A stretch of DNA of 64,000 bases from NCBI RefSeq assembly GCF_900496995.4, contig NC_044012.1, positions 24,094,759 through 24,158,758 of the forward strand. Reading direction: 5' to 3'. A program made the translations under genes and the position numbers. The stretch comes from Aquila chrysaetos chrysaetos (taxonomy: Eukaryota; Chordata; Aves; Accipitriformes; Accipitridae). This document shows positions 6,012-47,700 of this stretch, piece after piece (within the stretch, counting starts at the first letter, position 1; every line of letters starts with the position of its first letter). The notes under the pieces were generated by a model. That model saw only the letters and a list, made by a program, of their open reading frames with translations. It ran no database searches and was not told the DNA's origin.

Positions 6012-6960
6012 ATGGGCCAGCTGCAGCTCTGGCTTGCTGTCCTGGCCGTGCTCTCGGGGATCGTGGCCCAGGAAGGTAGGGGCAACGCCAGGGGACAGGA
6101 GCTGGCACGGGGTGGGGCAGGTCCAGGGGGGGATGCGGCAGCAGCTCTCAGAGCCCTCTGCTTTGTGCCAGAGCCCGGTCAGCAAGGCTGGAGGATGCTG
6201 GAGCAAGGCTGGGTTCAGCAGAGGGGATGTCAGGGATGCAGAGTCACCCGGGGCAGGGGGACAGAGGAAGGCTCAGAGGCAGTCACAGGGGGCTGCAGGA
6301 CTCCCCAGCCTCCCGCCACATCCCCTCTCTCATCCCCCAGACCTGTACCGAAAGGTGTTTGTCTTCCGGAAGGACCCCAGCAATGCCTATGTGGTGCTGA
6401 GGGCCAAGCTTGAGCAGCCGCTGCAGAACTTCACCGTGTGCCTGCGGTCCTACACCGATCTGACCCGGCCCTACAGCCTCTTCTCCTACGCCACCAAGGC
6501 GCAGGACAACGAGATCCTCCTCCTCAAGCCCAAGCCCGGCGAGTACCGGCTCTATGTGGGGGGCAAGTTCGTCACCTTTCGTGTCCCCGAGGGTGGCAGG
6601 GACTGGGAGCACGTCTGTGCTAGCTGGGAGTCTGCCACTGGCATCGCCGAGTTTTGGCTCAATGGGAAGCCCTGGCCCCGCAAGGGGCTGCAGAGGGGCT
6701 ACACGGTGGGGGTGGAGGCGGCCGTCCTGCTGGGGCAGGAGCAGGATGCCTTCGGGGGCGGCTTCGACGTCTACAACTCATTCTCGGGCGAGCTGGCTGA
6801 CGTCTACCTGTGGGATGTGGGGCTGTCCCCAGACAAGATGCGAGCCGCCTACCAGTCCCTGCGCCTGCCGCCTGCCGTCCTGGCCTGGAAGAGCCTAAGC
6901 TATGAAGTGAAGGGTGATGTGGTGGTGAAACCCCGACTCCGGGAGGTGCTGGGGCCATGA
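6012..6960 (+). CDS. CRP: Short pentraxin (C-reactive protein / serum amyloid P type)
   Basis: Secreted calcium-dependent pattern-recognition protein expected to form pentameric rings that bind microbial and damaged-cell surfaces. Two exons: 6012-6075 (signal peptide, ends phase 1 before GTAGGG) and 6341-6960, giving 227 aa (human CRP 224, SAP 223), the classic short-pentraxin structure. Signal peptide about residues 1-19. The pentraxin signature HVCASWES is at 112-119; calcium ligands D77-N78 and E155-Q156-D157 are present, followed by GGGFD, where Asp at the next ligand position is as in SAP. The GEYRLYVGG strand also resembles SAP more than CRP, and the Phe used by CRP to pack phosphocholine is Leu (DNEILLL). 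Orthology to CRP rather than APCS is therefore open; the symbol follows common avian usage. An in-frame extension upstream to 5905 lacks a signal peptide and is rejected. Confidence 0.9.
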
Positions 6961-7663: not shown

Positions 7664-9635
7664 ATGGGGCAGCTGTGGCTCTGCCTCCTCACCCTCACAG
7701 CACTTTTTGACCTTGCTGCCCCGAAAGGTAGGGGCGGAGGGACTGCTCTGGGACCCCCTCTGGGTCCCATGGAGGCAGCGGAACGTGCAGTGGGGAACAG
7801 TGGGGAGCAGCGGGTGCAGTGAGTATAGGGGGACATGCAGCAGTGGTGGCAGTGGGGAGCAGTGGGGCACCCTGAGCACTGCAAAGGGGTGCAGCAGGTG
7901 CAGTGAGGGGTGCAGTGGGTGCAGCGAGGGTGCAGCAAGGGTGCAGTGGGTGCAGGGGGAGGAGCGGGGGTCACACTGTAGCTGCGCAGTGGAGGAGGCA
8001 CCCAGAACAGAAGGGTGCAGTGGGCTCAGTGCAGTGTGCTGGGCGTGCAGGAGGGGTGCAGTAGGGGTGGGAGGAGGAGATGCAATGGCAGTGTAGCGAG
8101 AACCAAAAGGGGCAACCTGAGCACCACAACGGGGGCAGCAGTGAGGGGCAGCAGGGACACAACGCCAGGTACCACGAAGAGTGCTGCAGGGCTGCGGCAG
8201 GGACGGGGGGCTCCCACAGGCTGGTGCAGCTGGGCCCCATGGGTGGGGCAGGGGGGACAGGGAGACCCCCCTACCCAGCCTGGCCCTTCCCTCTGGGTGC
8301 TGCAGAAAAAGTGACCGCCCAGATCCAGGCTCACCCGCCAGCACCGACCCTGTACCACCAGCTGATGCTCTCCTGCAAGGTCACAGGGGACGCCAGGTAA
8401 GGCACTCCCTGCCCTTCCACAGCCTCTGGCACAGCACCAGCGTGGGGCAGGCAGCTCCAGTATCCCTGGCCCCATGAGCAGCTGGAGAAGAAGGGGCTGG
8501 GGAGGGAGCACCATGATCCCTCCGTGTCCCCCCACCGCATGGCATGGCCACCCCGGGGTGTCCACCCACCTGAGTGACACCTGGCCTGGCTCAGCCCCCA
8601 GGAGTTCCTGTGGGAGAAGGAAGGAAGCCACGACCCCCTGCAGAAAGGCCCCGACAGCATCCTTCTCTTCCCCTCCTTCAACAAGACCCACTTGGGCACC
8701 TACGTCTGCACAGCCACTGGCTCACTGGGCACTGCCGTGGCCACCTACAACCTGTGGATAGATGGTAGGGAGAGTACCAAGGGGATAGCTGGGGACAAAG
8801 GCTCTTCCCCTGCTTCCCACAGCTCATCCTCACCACCCTGTGCCCATGGCACCCCATACCACAGCCCACATGTGGCCGGTTTTAGTGGTGCAATCCACCT
8901 CCGGCCCTGGTGCTGGAGGCCACCTCCAGGGTGGTGGTGGCTTCCTCACTGGCACACTGCAATCCTGTTTCCTCTTGGGGGACTTGGCCAGATGCCTTCA
9001 CCGTGGCAGGAGAAACCACCTCTTTCTCACCTCTCCCAGACCTGCTGTACAACGTGTTCGTGTTTCCCCAAGAGACCAAAGACTCCCACGTGCTGGTGAG
9101 GGCGAAGCCAGAGCAGCCGCTGCAGAACTTCACCGTGTGCCTGTGGTCCTACACTGATCTGACCCGGCCCTACAGCCTCTTCTCCTACGCCACCAAGGCG
9201 CAGGACAATGAGATCCTCCTCCTCAAGCCCAAGCCTGGTGAGTACCGGCTCTACGTGGGGGGCAAGTTTGTGTCCTTCAGCGTCCCCAAGAGCATCGCGA
9301 TGAGCGAGCACGTCTGCGCCAGCTGGGAGTCCACCACCGGCATCGTGGGCTTTTGGTTCAACGGGAAGCCCTGGCCCCGCAAGGGGCTGCAGAAGGGCTA
9401 CACGGTGGGGGTGGAGGCGTCCATCGTGCTGGGGCAGGAGCAGGACGCCTTCGGGGGTGGCTTTGACGCCCAGCAGTCCTTTGTGGGGGAAATGTCAGTC
9501 GTGTACATGTGGGACGCGGGCATCTCCACCTCGGGGGTGATGGAGGCCATGAACAACAGACCTGACAAAGCCCCCATCTTCGGCTGGAGAAACTTCCCCT
9601 ACCAGATCGTGGGCGAAGTCTACCTGAAGCCCTGA
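7664..9635 (+). CDS. Ig-domain pentraxin fusion protein
   Basis: Secreted pentraxin with an extra N-terminal Ig domain. Exons: 7664-7727 (signal peptide, MGQLWLCLL..., 64 nt exactly as in the neighbouring pentraxin), 8306-8396, 8595-8764 (Ig domain) and 9040-9635 (pentraxin domain); junction phases 1, 2, 1, all GT/AG, total 306 aa. The Ig domain (residues 22-108) has Cys45, Trp58 in FLWEKEGS, a possible N-glycan at N81 (NKT) and GTYVCTAT with Cys90. The pentraxin domain has DN at 164-165, HVCASWES at 199-206 and EQD at 242-244, so calcium binding looks intact. The two Ig exons have no counterpart in the plain pentraxin upstream. The Ig sequence is closest, from memory, to the third Ig domain of CADM3. 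Because the cassette is phase 1-1, skipping it would leave a normal 219-aa pentraxin. No stop or broken splice site is seen, so the gene looks functional. Confidence 0.88.
7785..8135 (+). repeat. GTGCAG-rich microsatellite/minisatellite in intron 1 of the Ig-pentraxin
   Basis: Repeated GTGCAGTGGGGAGCAGTG, GGTGCAG and GTGCAGCGAGG words in loose tandem between the signal-peptide exon and the first Ig exon. The long open frames in this stretch, on both strands, come from this composition. Confidence 0.7.
8306..8764 (+). other. Inserted Ig-domain exon cassette (two exons)
   Basis: Exons 8306-8396 (91 nt) and 8595-8764 (170 nt) together add 261 nt, a multiple of three, between two phase-1 junctions. 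The internal intron splits the Ig domain between the GDA and SPQEFLWEK segments. The acceptor for the second exon is taken as CTCAG ending at 8594: using the nearer CCCCCAG would break the frame, while 8595 gives AG+C, then Pro, Gln, Glu, Phe. CADM-family Ig domain 3 is also encoded by split exons. The cassette lies wholly inside the position of the ancestral pentraxin intron. Confidence 0.85.
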
Positions 9636-17200: not shown

Positions 17201-20200
17201 TGTGCTCTGAGCGAGGGGTGCTGCCAGAGGCACTCGGATACGTCCATCTGTCCCTGTGCCTCCTGTCGCAGGAGATTCTGTGGGTCTGGGTTGGAGCTGA
17301 CTGTGGGGAGACGCAGGAGGGGTGGGAGATGTGGCAGGTGGCTGCAGCGGCTGGAAGAAGTCCGGGCGCTGTTGGGAGGGGTTTGCACATGTCTGTGTGC
17401 TGGGTTTGCGCAGGGCTGCACGGCCCCAGCACTCTGCATGTGATCCTGTCCCTCAACCACCCAGCCTCCGTGCCCAAACCAGTCTGCCTGGGTCCCACCG
17501 CTCCTCTTCCTCCTTGCCAGGCTCATCTGGCGGGATGCGGCCTCCTGCTGCCGGTAGCACTCGTGCAGTGACCTGCCTGGGCGCCGGTGGGTTGGGCAGC
17601 GTGTGGGGACTGCCTGTGACACTGACCTCCTGGGTAGAGCTGACAACAGCGTTCGGCAAAGCTTGCTTTGTTGGAAACACTTCAGGAAGCTGCTGGGCCC
17701 GGCTAGCTCTGGGATGTCGATGGGGAGCGTCATGAGCCATTCCAGCGCCAAGAGCTGCGTGCTGTGCTGCCAGGACTGTGGCCATGGCCCTGATGTGGTG
17801 TGCTGGGAGCAAGGCAACCCCAGGCAGTGGCATGCCTGGGGCTAAACCTGCATCCCTAGCCTGGAGCAGTTCTCTGGGCCATGGATGCCTGCAGTGGGGT
17901 CGGGGGCAGGTAGCCTCGGGGGTGCCAGGGCAGTGGGTGCTGCTGGCTGCGCACCCCAGCCGGGGCTGAGCCAATTGCCTGCTGCACGCCTGAGCCGATT
18001 ATGGCTCTGATAATAGCCCAGGGGATTAAAGGGCTGTGCTCGCTGTCGCTTTGCGCCCTTATCCTCCTCCTCATCAAAGAGGCCGTGGGGCGCGGGGCTG
18101 CTGCCTGCTTGGGCCGAGGGCCCCATGGTCCAGGAGAGCACCCTGCTGCTCACCCTCAAGGGGTCTGTAGCACTCGTGCCTGTGAGGCAGGCGAGGGGTT
18201 CAGCCTCACCCCCTCCGTGCCACGGGGAGAGGGGACAGTGCGGGGGTGCCCGAGGCTTAGCAGGGCTCCTAAGGGTGAGACTGCCGGGGGGGGGCTCCTG
18301 GGGGAAAGGGCAGCTGAGGCTGCAGGAGAGGGGTCCCTGAAAGGCAAGGGGGAAGGGGGCAGGGAGGGATTTTGCAGGCAGGCTGGCAGCTCAAGGGGGA
18401 GGCAGAGGGGGCAGTGGGACCAGCTTTCTTGCCCAGCTGCTGAGAGCGATGCTCAAGGTGCAGGGACCCACCTTGTCAGGGGGGTCCCGGCCGAGGCCAC
18501 CCTACACGGGGGCAGGTGGCAGAGCCCACCTCCACGTCCTCTCCCATTTCCCCAACAGCGGCAGGAGGTGTAGTGCTAAATGTCGGTGTGACCAACCTCC
18601 ACCGTGGCACAGCCGCCCTGGCTTTTGTCCTGTGGCCATTCCCAGCCCCCTGTGGCACCAGCCGAGGTGGAAGAAGGCCGAGCGTGGCCTGGCCACGCTG
18701 GCAGACCCTGCCACTGCCAAGTGGGGCAGTCGGCCCCACTCCCCAGGGAAGCCACTGAGCCCGCAGTGGGGGCAAGTGCTGTGTGGGTGGGTGTCCCGGG
18801 GAGGCGGGTGGCCCAGTAATGCAGCTGTCCCTGAGCCGGCAGCACTGGCTGTGACGGCCGCTTCTGGGTGTGCAGGTCGCGTGCGGATCGAGGAAGGCGC
18901 CTCGCTGCGCATCGACCTCCTGCGTGCCGAGGACCAAGGCTGGTACGAGTGCCGCGTGCTCTTCCTTGACCGGCATAGCACCGACGCCGACTTCCAGAAC
19001 GGCACCTGGATCCACCTCACTGTCAACGGTACCAGTAGATCCCACCCTTGGTTACTGCTCTGCCCAGCACCAGCCAAGATCTCTCAGGGCTGCGACTGGA
19101 TCCACTGGTCTTGCAACACCAGTTGAGCTGGACCTGGGGGTAAGGGTCTGGACTTGTCTTTACAGCACCCCCCACTTTCCTGGAGACCCCCCCTGCATTT
19201 GTGGAGGTGAGGGACCAGGACGCACTGAGCCTTACCTGCACGGCTGTTGGCAACCCCCAGCCTGTTGTCATCTGGAAGAGGAGCGACCTGGCTGTGCAGA
19301 GTGGGGACACAGTGCAGGTGAGGACAGCAAACCACCCGTTACCCCTCTGTGGTGTGTCCCCCAGCTCAGCCAGGGTCTTGTGGGGCAGCCAGGCATGCAG
19401 AGCAATGCAACTCTGCTTGGCTGGAGAGCAGGCTCCCGTCCCCACCATGGTGGCACTCACCTACTGCCACCGGCCCTGCCACAGTGCCACATTCCTGAGA
19501 GTGTCCTGTCCCTTGGTGGCCATGCCACATGCCCGGTGCCATTGCAGGTGAGGAACGGGACGCTGAGTATTGCTGTTGTGGAGCGCGCCAGCGCAGGCAC
19601 TTATACCTGCCATGCTTCCAGCAAGGAGGGTACCATCACCCACACCACCCGTGTGCTTGTGCAGGGTAAGAGCAGGTGCTTTCCTGGCCCTGGCCATGTG
19701 GGCCACCCCACTGGGTGCTGCCACAGGCCACAGAGGGAGCCACATCAGAGGGGTTGGTTTTGGGGCAGGTGCGGGTATGATGGGCTTTGGGAGCAGCTGG
19801 GGCCATCCCCTGTCCCCAGTCCTCATTATCCCCTCTGCTTCACCCTGCAGGGCCACCTATCATCGTGGTGCCACCCCAGAACGTCACCGTCAACGTCTCC
19901 CAAGATGCCTTTCTGGCATGCCAGGCTGAGGCGTACCCAGGAAACCTCACCTACACCTGGTTCCAGGGCAGCAGCAATGTCTTCCATCTCAGGTACAGTG
20001 GGAACAGGGATGGCACCAAGGTGGCTGCGGGCTCCTGCTGGCAGTGCTGGGGCTGGCGGGGCTGCTGTGGCCCTGCGAAGCGTGGCTCAGAGTGATGGGC
20101 TGGGTGCGTGGCTGGGGGGTTCGCTCATCCCAGAGCAGTGGGGACGGTCCCAGCCACACTGCTCACCACTGCCCTCCCTTTCCCGTGCAGCCACCTCCAG

Positions 20201-23200
20201 GCTCGGGTCCGCGTCCTGGTGGACGGGAGTCTCTTGCTCCAGCGAACGACCCCAGACGATGCCGGCAAATACACCTGCATCCCCAGCAATGGGCTGTGGA
20301 AGCCGCCTTCTGCCTCAGCCTTCGTCACAGTGCTGTGTAAGAGCCCCACAGCCCCTCACGAGCCTGGGCCACGCTGTCAGCAGCTCCGCTCACGGAAAGG
20401 CCCTGCTGGGCCAGCCTGTGGAGGTCCCCACAGGCTGTGGTGGGAAGGAGGTACCCCTTCAGCTGCCACAGGGACCCTGGCCCCCTGCCGCCCTCATGCA
20501 GGCCCTGGCACCCTGTTTGTCCTCGCAGATCCAGCGCAGGTGACCACTATGCTCCCAGAGACCCACCTGCCCAAGGGGATGCAGGGTGTGATCCGCTGCC
20601 CCACCAGGGCCAACCCCCCTCTGCTCTCCGTCAGCTGGACGAGGGATGGGCGCCCACTGGAGCTGGACAAGGTACCACTGCTTGCACCCTCCCCTGCCTT
20701 CCCACCGCCCTGAGCCCCTCATCCTGACCCTGTGCCCCAATCTCCCAGCTCCCTGGCTGGTCCACAAGACCAGACGGCTCCATTGTCATTGCGATGGGGA
20801 ACGACGATGCGCTGGGAGTGTACACGTGTACCCCGTACAACAGCTATGGCACTGCTGGCGAGTCCCGGCCCACGCGTGTCCTGCTGAAGGTGAGGCTGGG
20901 CAGATGGGCACACTGCCCAAGTCCCTCGCCCAAGCTGCTCCCACCCTGCCGTGCTGAGCAGCCCAGGCACACTGCGTGCCTGCCGGCCTGCCTTGCTGCA
21001 GGTCTGCACCCTGTCCTGCCTGCCACCAAGCCCTTCACCATGTGTGCCTGTCTTCCAGGACCCCCCTGCCTTCACGGTGCGCCCTAAGGAGGAATACTTC
21101 CAGGAGGTGGGCCGGGAGCTGGTGATCCCCTGCGCCGCCCATGGGGATCCCCCCCCAACTGTCACCTGGCTGAAGGTAGGAGCCACCACTCTGGGGAAAC
21201 AGCTGAGACCTCCTGGGAGGCGGATGCTGCTTTTGGCCTCTGGGGCATCACTCTAGCACAGTCCCCATATCTGCGTCCCTGCAGATGCTACAGGGTCACC
21301 TCTCTCCTGGTTCCTGCAGTAGAAGGGGCTCAGGGCACTTTGCTTGTGTCGCCCCCTAAGAAACCAGGGAAAAAGTCCTGCCCCTCGGTTCCTAAACCAG
21401 CACCAGGGTGGTGGATCACGTTAGCTGTCCCAGCCCTGGGTGGGGTGGGTGGTTGCCCATGATCGGTGTGTCCATGCCTTGCCATGCAGGTGGGTAGCAT
21501 GGGGAAGAGTGGTGCCCAGGTGGATGGGAACAGCAGCCTCATCTTCCACCCGCTCGTCAAGGAGCAGCATGGTGTCTGGGAGTGCACGGCCACCAACCTG
21601 GTGGCCAGTGTCAGCACCACCACCTCTGTCCACGTGCTGGGTGAGTTGCTGGTCGCTGGTGGGCAGATGCTGTGGGTGCTGGGCTGCCCTGGGGTGGACA
21701 ACACCAGCCTCCCTGTGCTGGAAGGGATGGAAATGCCCCTGCATGACTGTTGTCTAAGCCACCCTGTCTGACAGGTCTTCTCTCTGCTTCTGCCACCAGG
21801 TACCAGTCCTCACGCTGTCACCAACGTCACTGTGCTCCCGCTCCTGCTGGCAGCCAATATCTCCTGGGAGCCGGGGTTTGACGGGGGTTATTTCCAGAGG
21901 TTCAGCGTCTGGTACACACCGCTGTGAGTCCCTGTGGGCAGCATCTGGTGTCCCACACCCCCTCTGCCCCACCAGGGGCCCTCAGTTCTGGACTCCCATT
22001 TCCCACATTTCCTCAGGGTGAAGCATCCACCCCGGGCCCATCATGACTGGGTGTCGCTCTCTGTGCCGGTGGGGGCTCAGCACCTCTTGGTGGAAAATCT
22101 GCAGCCAGACTTAAGCTACCAGTTCAGCGTCCTGGCCCAGAACAAGCTGGGCAGTGGCCCCTTCAGCCAGATTGTCACCTCTGTGCCCAGGGGTAAGAGG
22201 GGACCTGTGCGCTCCCCAAAGCAGCTCCTGTCCCCACAGAGCCCTCAAGCACTGAGGAGTCTCCTGTTTCTGCCCTGCTGTCCCCTCGCATTAGCTCCCA
22301 CACCATCGTCCCTTTTCTCCTCAGGCTTCCCAGTGACCACAGTGCCTCCAGAGCCGCCAGCCATGACCATGCGCGTCTTCCTGTCCCCGCCGCAGGCTCT
22401 GACTGCCAATGAGACTGTGCGTGGGGTCCTGCTGCAGTGGGAGCCCCCGGCTCAGTTCTCAGTGGCGCTGAGCGGCTATGCGCTGGAGCTGCGGCAGGGC
22501 AAGGGTGGCTGGGAGGTGCTGGACCGCTCCATCCCTAGCACGAAGACCCAGGTGCTGGTGCCAGGACTCATCAAGGTGGGAATTTCACCGGGTGCTCCCT
22601 GGCTGTGGGGCAGCTCAGGCGACGCAGCAAGGGAAGGGGATCAGATCTCCTGTGTCGCTGCTAGCCAGAGCTGGGGCCTCTGGCAGAGCCACTCGGCTCT
22701 GCAGCTGTGTGGGCTGAGGCTTGGCTGACCACTTGTACCAACAAGGCTAATGGCCCTCTGCTCCCCAGGACGCCTTCTATGAGTTCCGACTGGTGGCCTT
22801 TGCTGGCAGCTACATCAGCGATCCTAGCAACACGGTGAATGTCTCCACAGCAGGTAAGGCCTGGGCTGCTGCCCACTTGCTCTTCCTGCCCTGGGGATAG
22901 AAATCAGAGGTGTGAAGTGCCCGGCATGGTCTAGGATCTTCCCAAAGAGAAACCCCTTCACACTGCTCCCACCCCCAAGTGTCCCTGCTGCTAGACCAGG
23001 GTATACAGTGCCCAGAGCAGGACCCCCAAAGCTAACACCATGGGAACACCCATCTCCACATGTGGGTCTGGCATGACCTCAGTCTCACGGACCACGTAGC
23101 AGGAGAGCTCTGTGCAGAGCATCCCTGCTCCCAGTGCCTGGCACGGTGGAGGGCGTGGGTCCGCCTGAAGGCAGAGCAGCCCCAATGGGCAAGAGAGCTG

Positions 23201-44786: not shown

Positions 44787-47700
44787 ATGGCAGGGCACGG
44801 CGCCAGCCTGCTCCTGCTCCTGGGTCTCATGCCAGGTAGGCACTGATGGATCCCTGCACTTGGACCTGCTCCTGCAGCAATGCCGCCGAGGATGGAGGGG
44901 GTCCCTGCCCAACCTTGCGGAACCCCAGGGTGCTGGATACGTCCCTGGTTCTGCCCTGACACGCACCTGTCTTGGCCAGAGCCAGGCGGGTGGCATTGAG
45001 CCCGCCCAGTCCCTTTGTCCCCAATGCAGCTTCACAGGACCCAGATGGTCCCAGCCCTGATGGGTACTCAACCCCACCAGGACACCCAGTCCCTGCAGGT
45101 GCCTGGCCCTGGGAGATGGCTTCCTGCCCCATTCCTGCTCCCCGCAGGTCAGGGTGCTGCCAGGTGTGGGGTTGGGGTGCATTGTGGCACAGGTTTGGGG
45201 TGTTCCCCAGCTGGTGCGATGGGTGCCGTTCTCTCCCCAGCTCTCCTCCTGGCTGTCAGGATCAACAGCAAGGGCCGGGAAGTGCTGTACCTGGCCAAGG
45301 GTGACTCGGTGAAGCTGGGCTGCCCCTATGTCCTCGAGCCTGAAGACAACGGTCCCCAGGGTGTGGGCATCGAGTGGATCCAGATCACGCCCGAGCGGCC
45401 CGGACCGGAGAATGTGGTGAGTGTCACTTGCCCCAGCAGCTGCCATCCCACCATGCAGGCAGGGCAGGCAGGGCTGGGATGGACCAGATGGAGCCCAGCC
45501 AACCAGGCAAGGACAGGCAGGACAGGCAAGGTCTGGCAGGGCAGGGAAGGACCGGGCAGGGAAGGACCAGGCAGGGCAGGGAAGAACCAGGCAGAGCAGG
45601 CAGGGCTTGGAAGGACCAGACAAAGCCCAGCAGAGCAGGCAGGACAGGCAAGGTCTGGCAGGGCAGGGAAGGACCAGGCAGGACAGGCAGAACAGGGAAG
45701 GACCAGGCAGGACAGGCAGAGTCTGGGAGTGCTGGGCTGGGAAGGGCCAGGCAGGGTAGGGAAGGACCAGGCAGGGTCTGGCAGGGCAGGGAAGGAACAG
45801 GCAGGGCAAGCAGGGGCGGGCAGGCACCGGGCAGCGCATTTCCTTCCCCAGCTGGCAGCCCCAGGTCCCCCGACCTGGACCTGCCCTGCCCAGTCTCCCC
45901 GCTTGCCCCCCCCAGTTCCTGTCTTACCACGACCACCACGTCAACTACGGCAGTGGCTCAGGGCTGCAGGACCGGGTAGCCTTCGTGCAGAACGACCCCA
46001 GCCAGTACGACGCCTCCATCCGCCTGGCCGACCTGCAGGTCTCCGACACTGGCACCTACCAGTGCCGGGTGAAGAAAAATACCGTGGCCGTGCACGAGGT
46101 CATCGTCACTGTGCAAGGTGAGCTCCCCCCTGCCCCATGCCCCCCTCCCAGGTGCTCCAGCTAGCCCCCAGTGGCCCCGGCGGTGACAGTGTCCCTCTCC
46201 CTGCAGAGAAGCCAGCCACCCCGCAGTGCTGGACCGAGGGGGAGGTGATAGAGGGGAGCAGCATCCTGCTGCGGTGCTACAGCCGGGGAGGCACCTCCCC
46301 GCTTGCCTACCAGTGGGCCAAGCTGGCTGATGGCTACGGCGGGGGACGCCTGCCCTCTGGCACCATCCAAGGTGGGTTCTGGCGGGGCTGCGCCCACCCA
46401 GGGCACTTCCCCGGGGGGCTCTGCTGGGTGCAGGGGATACTCATGGGTGGGGTGCCCCTGTCTGTGAGTGCATGTGTTGGTGGGTGCCCAGGGCTGTGTG
46501 CACCGAGATACACGGGTGTCTGTGTGCACCTGTGTTCATGGATGTCCGTGTCGGTATGTGCCTTGTCCCTGTGCACCCGTGTCCGACGGTGGGGCTGACG
46601 GGGCTGTCTCTCCCCACTGCAGGACGTGCTCCTGGCGACCTGTTAATCCGTAGCCTGTCGGAGGTGCACGCCGGCATCTACCAGTGCCGCGTCACCAACC
46701 GCGTGGGCTACTCTGTGTGCCAGCTCAACCTCAGTCTTGGGCCAAGTAAGTGCCACCACGGGCAGGACAGCACGGGCAGGGTGCTGCCGGGGGCTGGCTC
46801 TGAGTGCCAGCGTGCCACCGGTGGCATGGTGACCAGTGGGCAGCCGGTGGGGAGGCCGGCGGTGACAGGCTGTGCTCCCGCGGCAGGAGGAAGGCAGGCG
46901 GGCATCATCGTGGGCTCTATCCTGGGGTCCCTCCTGCTCCTCAGCCTGCTCGGGCTCCTCATCTGGGCGCTGATCTGCCGCTACCGCCGGAAGGAGTGCC
47001 AGCGAGCCTGCAGCGACTGCAGGTGAGGGGCATGGGATGGGTACAGGGCCAGTGGGCACCAGTGGGTGCTGCTGGGCACTGACGGGCATCAGTGGGTATT
47101 GCAGAGGACTGGTGGGCACCGCTGGGTACCACTAGGGGCTGGTGGGCACCGGTGGGTGTCACTGGGTGCTGACAGGCATCACTGGGCATTACTGGGGACT
47201 GATGGGCACCCACAGGCACTGCTGGGTACCACTGGGACCCAATGGGCACCCATGGGCACTGCTGGGTGTCACGAGGCGCTGATGGCCACCATGGGTCACC
47301 TATGGGTACCACAAGACAATGATGAGGACTAACAAGCACTGATGGGCACCAATGGGTGGCACTGGGTGCTGATAGGTACCACTGGGAACTGCCAGGTACC
47401 AATGGATCCCAGTGAGCACTGGTGGGTGCCATCAGGTAGGTACTAATGTGTGCCAGAGGGCACCGATGAGCTGATGAGTGCCACCAGGCACTGGCTGGCA
47501 ATGATAGAAACCAGTGGGGTGCCAATGGGTGCCACTGGGCACTGCCAGGCACTGCTGAGCATCCATGAACACCAAGGGGTGCCACCAGTCACTGATGGGT
47601 GCTGATGGGTGCCACTGGGCACCACTGAGCACTGACAGGTGCCGCTGCGGCTTCCCTCTGCCCACAGGAGCAGCACAGGTGGCACTATGACCCGCACCTG

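Follow-up and report, generated by a model that had tools for sequence, protein, structure and literature searches.

A four-exon gene, found within a window of 64,000 bases (the whole stretch of DNA analysed, at genome position C9:24094759-24158758), probably encodes a soluble Ig-pentraxin: a short pentraxin of the CRP/SAP type, which appears to have received, in its first intron, the third Ig domain (Ig3) module of the neighbouring gene CADM3, and which is predicted to assemble into a ring with Ig arms. The structure of the gene, the domains, the calcium-binding residues and the CADM3 origin of the Ig (for exon 2, by length and phase) can be read from the sequence. The fusion had been proposed in an initial annotation of this DNA; the origin of the Ig in CADM3 is new with respect to it.

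Gene structure

The Ig-pentraxin gene, as reconstructed by exon joining and translation, lies on the + strand, within positions 7664-9635 of the window; its exons, along with the other features discussed, are reported in Table 1. All three introns are GT-AG, with phases 1-2-1, and the joined frame, of 921 nt including the stop, is translated into 306 aa with no internal stops. The four exons, the splice junctions and the length of the product described in the initial annotation turned out to be exact: junctions are GT-AG, phases are consistent and the frame is open. Secretion of the 306-aa protein is predicted from its signal-peptide-like start, and the gene model predicts that the transcript retains the Ig exons.

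Skipping exons 2 and 3 together keeps the frame and joins exon 1 to exon 4, generating a 219-aa short pentraxin; skipping exon 2 (91 nt) or exon 3 (170 nt) singly breaks it. Since the pair may be lost in frame, a short form is possible, and alternative splicing, by which one gene would yield both the 306-aa Ig protein and the 219-aa short one, is a tentative alternative. It is compatible with the Ig-pentraxin explanation, which it would limit; beyond the phases, however, nothing was seen that marks the Ig exons as optional.

Table 1. Features of the pentraxin locus and of the related CADM3 exons. Positions refer to the window, unless a contig is indicated.
Feature	Position	Strand	Description
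ACKR1-like gene	3.3-4.2 kb		7tm_1, 29.7 bits, just under the cut-off of 30.5
CRPa exon 1	6012..6075	+	64 nt, phase 1; upstream tandem paralogue without Ig
CRPa exon 2	6341..6960	+	pentraxin domain, 259.7 bits
Ig-pentraxin exon 1	7664..7727	+	64 nt; start codon and signal-peptide-like sequence MGQLWLCLLTLTALFDLAAPK (by eye); ends in phase 1
Ig-pentraxin exon 2	8306..8396	+	91 nt; N-terminal half of the Ig, with the first Cys; starts in phase 1, ends in phase 2
Ig-pentraxin exon 3	8595..8764	+	170 nt; C-terminal half of the Ig, with Trp and the second Cys; starts in phase 2, ends in phase 1
Ig-pentraxin exon 4	9040..9635	+	complete pentraxin domain and stop codon
DUSP23-like gene	from 10,792		PTP-SAK phosphatase model, 37.4 bits, cut-off 27
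Ig-bearing exons of two further genes	20096-21768 and 46122-47023		IGSF9-like, VSIG8-like
Exon 2 counterpart	G000:C9:24086566-24086656	+	91 nt, first exon of CADM3 Ig3
Exon 3 counterpart	G000:C9:24087036-24087205	+	170 nt, second exon of CADM3 Ig3

Domains of the predicted product

The Pfam search on the 306-aa product, which the initial annotation had called for, placed both expected domains above cut-off. Pentaxin (PF00354) covers residues 113-306, along the whole profile (1-194 of 194), with 240.4 bits (cut-off 25); Ig_3 covers residues 28-93, with 32.6 bits (cut-off 30). The models ig, Ig_2 and I-set also match the full product, each below its own cut-off. When the Ig part is scored alone, Ig_3 (36.1 bits, cut-off 30) and ig (23.4, cut-off 21.8) lie above threshold, Ig_2 (22.6, cut-off 27) and I-set (21.9, cut-off 23.7) below. 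Exon 3 alone produces sub-threshold Ig matches, the best at 19.4 bits, and exon 2 alone gives no Pfam match.

The pentraxin part, compared to PDB, is closest to SAP (6.6e-58) and CRP (3.8e-57), followed by neuronal pentraxin-1 (2.4e-18) and PTX3 (best 4.2e-15); identical residues are 94 of 198 with SAP (1gyk) and 129 of 198 with CRPa, the tandem paralogue. The calcium ligands of SAP, which we take to be D58, N59, E136, Q137, D138 and Q148, are all present, six out of six; together with the coverage of the entire profile, this bears out the claim of a complete calcium-binding pentraxin domain. Both pentraxin cysteines (SAP 36 and 95) are found as well. At the places presumed to form the phosphocholine pocket of human CRP (F66, T76, E81), the alignment to PDB structures reads L, Y and F: the pocket of CRP proper appears to be missing, and for this reason the ligands are more likely to resemble those of SAP. 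The translation also contains HVCASWES, in agreement with the pentraxin signature, given as H/SxCxS/TWxS in an excerpt of PMC5446266.

The locus and the tandem paralogue

The window contains no N and is 63% GC. It holds two tandem pentraxin genes, both on the + strand, located between an ACKR1-like and a DUSP23-like gene. Names of these neighbours are assumed from gene order, ACKR1 and DUSP23 being found beside the CRP/SAP genes on human 1q23; the name ACKR1 depends on this order, because the 7tm_1 match falls just under cut-off. The locus is found at 24 Mb in the 45-Mb C9; as the pentraxin locus of chicken is presumably on a microchromosome, this position would be consistent with a bird lineage in which microchromosomes have fused. 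Avian CR1 repeats, searched for with three patterns of their 3' end in order to place the lineage, gave no match.

The upstream gene, CRPa, has a joined frame of 227 aa and a single intron, of 265 nt and phase 1, in which an Ig match was looked for and none found. Identity to SAP is 100 of 198 residues. Five of the six calcium ligands are present, with Asn, not Gln, at SAP 148 (in the presumed SAP numbering), and the second calcium site may be altered because of this replacement. When the whole genome is searched with the Pentaxin model, 12 matches are obtained: the window pair scores 259 and 242 bits, and the next match 131. This gap indicates that the window holds both CRP/SAP-type genes found in the genome, one of them with an Ig.

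Similarity between the two pentraxin exons (9096-9476 versus 6397-6777) is patchy. Ks is 0.29 for codons 18-80, 0.40 for 80-92 and 0.27 for 92-145, rising to 1.4 and 1.9 towards the ends. As far as may be judged from few sites, the pattern is what would be expected if the genes duplicated long ago and their central part later underwent gene conversion. Probes directed to the shared middle may not distinguish the two genes.

Origin of the Ig domain

Searches were performed on the whole genome that contains the window (1.23 Gb, 144 contigs). The best match of exon 3, after itself, is C9:24087037-24087198, with 67% amino acid identity and E 1.1e-17; the next other place scores E 0.42, among 11 matches in all. 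In the reverse search, where the second exon of CADM3 Ig3 was the query, the best other match is exon 3 of the window (E 1.3e-17), the next other place being at 0.00275, again among 11 matches. The two exons are therefore reciprocal best matches; CADM3 is located ~16 kb upstream, on the same strand.

The Ig3 of CADM3 is split into two exons, of 91 and 170 nt, equal in length and phase to exons 2 and 3. The Ig of the window fits this module in its Cys-Trp-Cys residues, in the phase-2 intron between the cysteines and in the phase-1 flanks. Exon 3 aligns to its counterpart over the full 170 nt, with no length change. For exon 2 the similarity is weak, 43 of 87 bases and, in whole codons, 11 of 29 residues being identical; it is weak also by tblastn, with E 0.006 in a search within 18 kb. 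The joined Ig shares about 47 of 86-87 residues with CADM3 Ig3, against 18 of 55 residues for each of two other Ig genes in this genome. No blastn alignment was found between the intron separating the Ig exons and its CADM3 counterpart (198 vs about 380 nt).

The name of the donor comes from Ig1-type exons found ~2 kb before the Ig3 exons, and taken to be part of the same gene: in PDB they match 5zo2_B, "Cell adhesion molecule 3", at 3.7e-52, 1z9m (labelled GAPA225) at 3.6e-52 and CADM2 at 1.2e-39. The donor Ig3 alone does not single out the family, with ROBO2 as best match (1.4e-27) and CADM4 at 1.5e-8. Ig1-, Ig2-, Ig3- and membrane-like exons were read by eye at the donor locus.

The two other Ig genes, used as outgroup loci (L015, L018), had been presumed to be CADM1- and CADM2-like. 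L015, the one compared to PDB, matches contactin-2 best (3.7e-21), with CADM4 at 1.4e-7 over residues 1-55/56, and the naming is left unconfirmed. Within the window, exons of the IGSF9-like and VSIG8-like genes (at about 20.7-21.8 kb and 46.6 kb), named by presumed gene order, had been considered as donors; their matches to the Ig are weak, with E values of 0.024, 0.03 and 0.19 by phmmer, and of 0.002 and 0.004 by tblastn, and they were dropped after the CADM3 match.

On this evidence, exon 3 is assigned to CADM3 Ig3 through its sequence, and exon 2 to the same source by length and phase, its protein similarity being weak; a separate donor for exon 2 is conceivable. The reciprocal best match and the equal exon lengths and phases lead to exon shuffling of a phase 1-1 module as the explanation for the Ig. 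Copying of this kind, which places a phase 1-1 module in a phase-1 intron, is the usual form of exon shuffling, and could have taken place by insertion of a smaller piece or by tandem duplication accompanied by deletion.

Proximity of the donor, only ~16 kb away, and the use of a single assembly might suggest an artefact, in which a piece of CADM3 was misassembled into the pentraxin intron, or two genes were wrongly joined. The copy, however, differs from CADM3, with 67% protein identity in exon 3 and no intron alignment by blastn, and for this reason is not a misplaced read. In addition, the window is free of N, exon 1 is identical to exon 1 of CRPa in length (64 nt) and phase (1), and reading past exon 3, by eye, no membrane segment is met before the next stop. 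An artefact is considered very improbable.

Coding character and constraint of the Ig exons

GC content at the three codon positions (GC1/GC2/GC3) is 0.575/0.448/0.816 in the joined Ig exons, similar to that of the pentraxin exon (0.548, 0.406, 0.893). As a control, 4722 overlapping stop-free segments of 261 nt were taken from seven stretches judged non-coding, which also provided the background codon counts; three pieces, one ACKR1-like, one from CRPa and one DUSP23-like, served to train the codon model. The GC3-GC2 difference of the Ig exons is reached by none of the 4722 segments and their codon score by 0.57% of them. Part of this coding periodicity could be inherited from CADM3. With respect to CADM3, the 261 nt feature neither stops nor length changes, and Cys-Trp-Cys is kept. 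Periodicity, along with the absence of stops and indels, suggests that the Ig exons are in use.

Divergence from CADM3 was evaluated separately for the two exons. For exon 3, Ka is 0.247 and Ks 0.457; the resulting Ka/Ks of 0.54 is about what is expected for a free copy of a fixed donor. For exon 2, Ka is 0.65, while Ks is saturated (NG86 3.2). Synonymous divergence of the two exons is thus sharply unequal (saturated vs 0.46), which might reflect conversion of exon 3 by CADM3, on the evidence of few sites. Changes that could be resolved fall on the copy rather than on CADM3 by 6 to 2, with 11 unresolved.

Neutral simulations, in which only the copy changes, and by base substitution alone, were run on the joined Ig exons. 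At d = 0.385, corresponding to half of the joined Ks of 0.77, 23.8% of 4000 runs are without stops, and 1.7% are without stops and keep Cys-Trp-Cys; median identity is 39/86, with a 95% bound of 46, and the observed value is 47. Stop-free runs keeping Cys-Trp-Cys amount to 3.7%, 6.3% and 28.6% at d = 0.3, 0.23 and 0.1, with median identities of 46/86, 52/86 and 69/86, respectively: the observed identity, 47/86, does not exceed the neutral 95% bound unless d is at least 0.385. When exons are simulated singly (3000 runs each), the 36/57 observed for exon 3 is reached in 7% of runs at d about 0.3, and the 11/29 observed for exon 2 in 16% at d = 0.7 and in 1% at d = 1.0.

The captured Ig scores below its donor with the Ig_3 model (36.1 vs 51.7 bits), and the Asp of the DxGxYxC motif is lost, the sequence at 8689-8709 reading HLGTYVC. 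The balance favours an Ig exon pair that is in use but altered; constraint is unproven, and relaxed evolution is possible.

These data also bear on the alternative that splicing mostly or invariably omits the CADM3 fragment of intron 1, and that the functional protein is the 219-aa short pentraxin. Joint phase neutrality of exons 2 and 3, by which exon 1 joins exon 4 in frame, is in its favour, as are the acceptor of exon 3, whose pyrimidine tract is weak by eye, the Ka/Ks of this exon with the 7% of matching neutral runs that reach its identity, and the drift of the Ig from the family profile. Such a fragment would nevertheless have remained free of stops and length changes despite strong divergence, with periodicity in both exons, Cys-Trp-Cys kept and the GT-AG ends of every intron preserved. 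Habitual skipping is regarded as unlikely.

Predicted product and its meaning

According to the preferred explanation, the two-exon Ig3 module of CADM3 would have been copied into the first intron of a CRP/SAP-type short pentraxin, to give a product composed of a signal peptide, an Ig domain and a calcium-binding pentraxin domain. The pentraxin domains, probably arranged in a ring, as a secreted pentraxin, would bind ligands in a calcium-dependent, SAP-like manner. Each subunit would bear an N-terminal Ig arm, acting as a spacer or as an added binding surface, and the protein would act in solution, in pattern recognition or as an opsonin, with added valency.

The term "adhesion-type Ig", used in the initial annotation, is supported by the descent of the domain from CADM3, an adhesion molecule. 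Tethering to cells, which had been proposed along with it, does not follow by way of the CADM adhesive contact: CADM trans-adhesive contacts are made by Ig1, while the captured Ig3 is, in CADM3, the membrane-proximal domain. For the same reason the Ig may serve as spacer or offer a new surface for binding, instead of being a ready-made adhesive.

A further-reaching possibility is that the fusion is old and selected, and defines a new class of molecules: a calcium-dependent ring, with a CADM3-derived Ig arm on each subunit, where the Ig would add a second function, in recognition or docking, that CRP and SAP lack. Candidate partners of the Ig would then be a host receptor, the matrix or a partner of the CADM/nectin family. 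This extension is doubtful.

Few proteins of innate immunity have been studied as thoroughly as CRP and SAP. The Ig-pentraxin, if true, would represent a clean case of exon shuffling creating a new immune protein, where the donor, the exon lengths and the phases are still readable; labels such as "CRP" or "SAP" in birds may mask a different molecule.

Comparison with known systems

In the open-licence literature, to which the search was confined, no Ig-pentraxin was found. Novelty is provisional, because of this scope and because the fusion may already be present among uncurated gene models of other birds.

Short pentraxins are described as composed of the pentraxin domain only (excerpt of PMC6367253), chicken CRP as having 206 residues (excerpt of PMC6503050), and the CRP/SAP genes of human, chicken and lizard as having two coding exons (excerpt of PMC5446266). 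The gene reported here departs from the layout of CRP/SAP, with two coding exons for signal peptide and pentraxin only, in having four coding exons and an Ig; the 219-aa form, if the Ig exons are skipped, would fit the short-pentraxin layout. Like CRP and SAP (APCS), it features a signal-peptide-like exon, a phase-1 intron, a pentraxin domain with the SAP calcium ligands and the Cys pair; unlike them, it has an Ig between signal peptide and pentraxin.

PTX3, PTX4 and the neuronal pentraxins share with it an N-terminal extension, followed by a C-terminal pentraxin domain. The pentraxin domain of the Ig-pentraxin, however, is much closer to SAP than to PTX3 or the neuronal pentraxins and, to our knowledge, the N-terminal parts of long pentraxins are not Ig domains.

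The amphibian pentraxin fusion protein, SVEP1 and the pentraxin-bearing adhesion GPCRs, in which a pentraxin domain is joined to other domains, are likewise multidomain, but their partner domains differ; we know of no multidomain pentraxin in which an Ig immediately precedes a domain of the CRP/SAP type. CADM3 (nectin-like 1, SynCAM3), finally, is a membrane protein with three Ig domains, of which the Ig-pentraxin has Ig3 only, placed ahead of the pentraxin domain.
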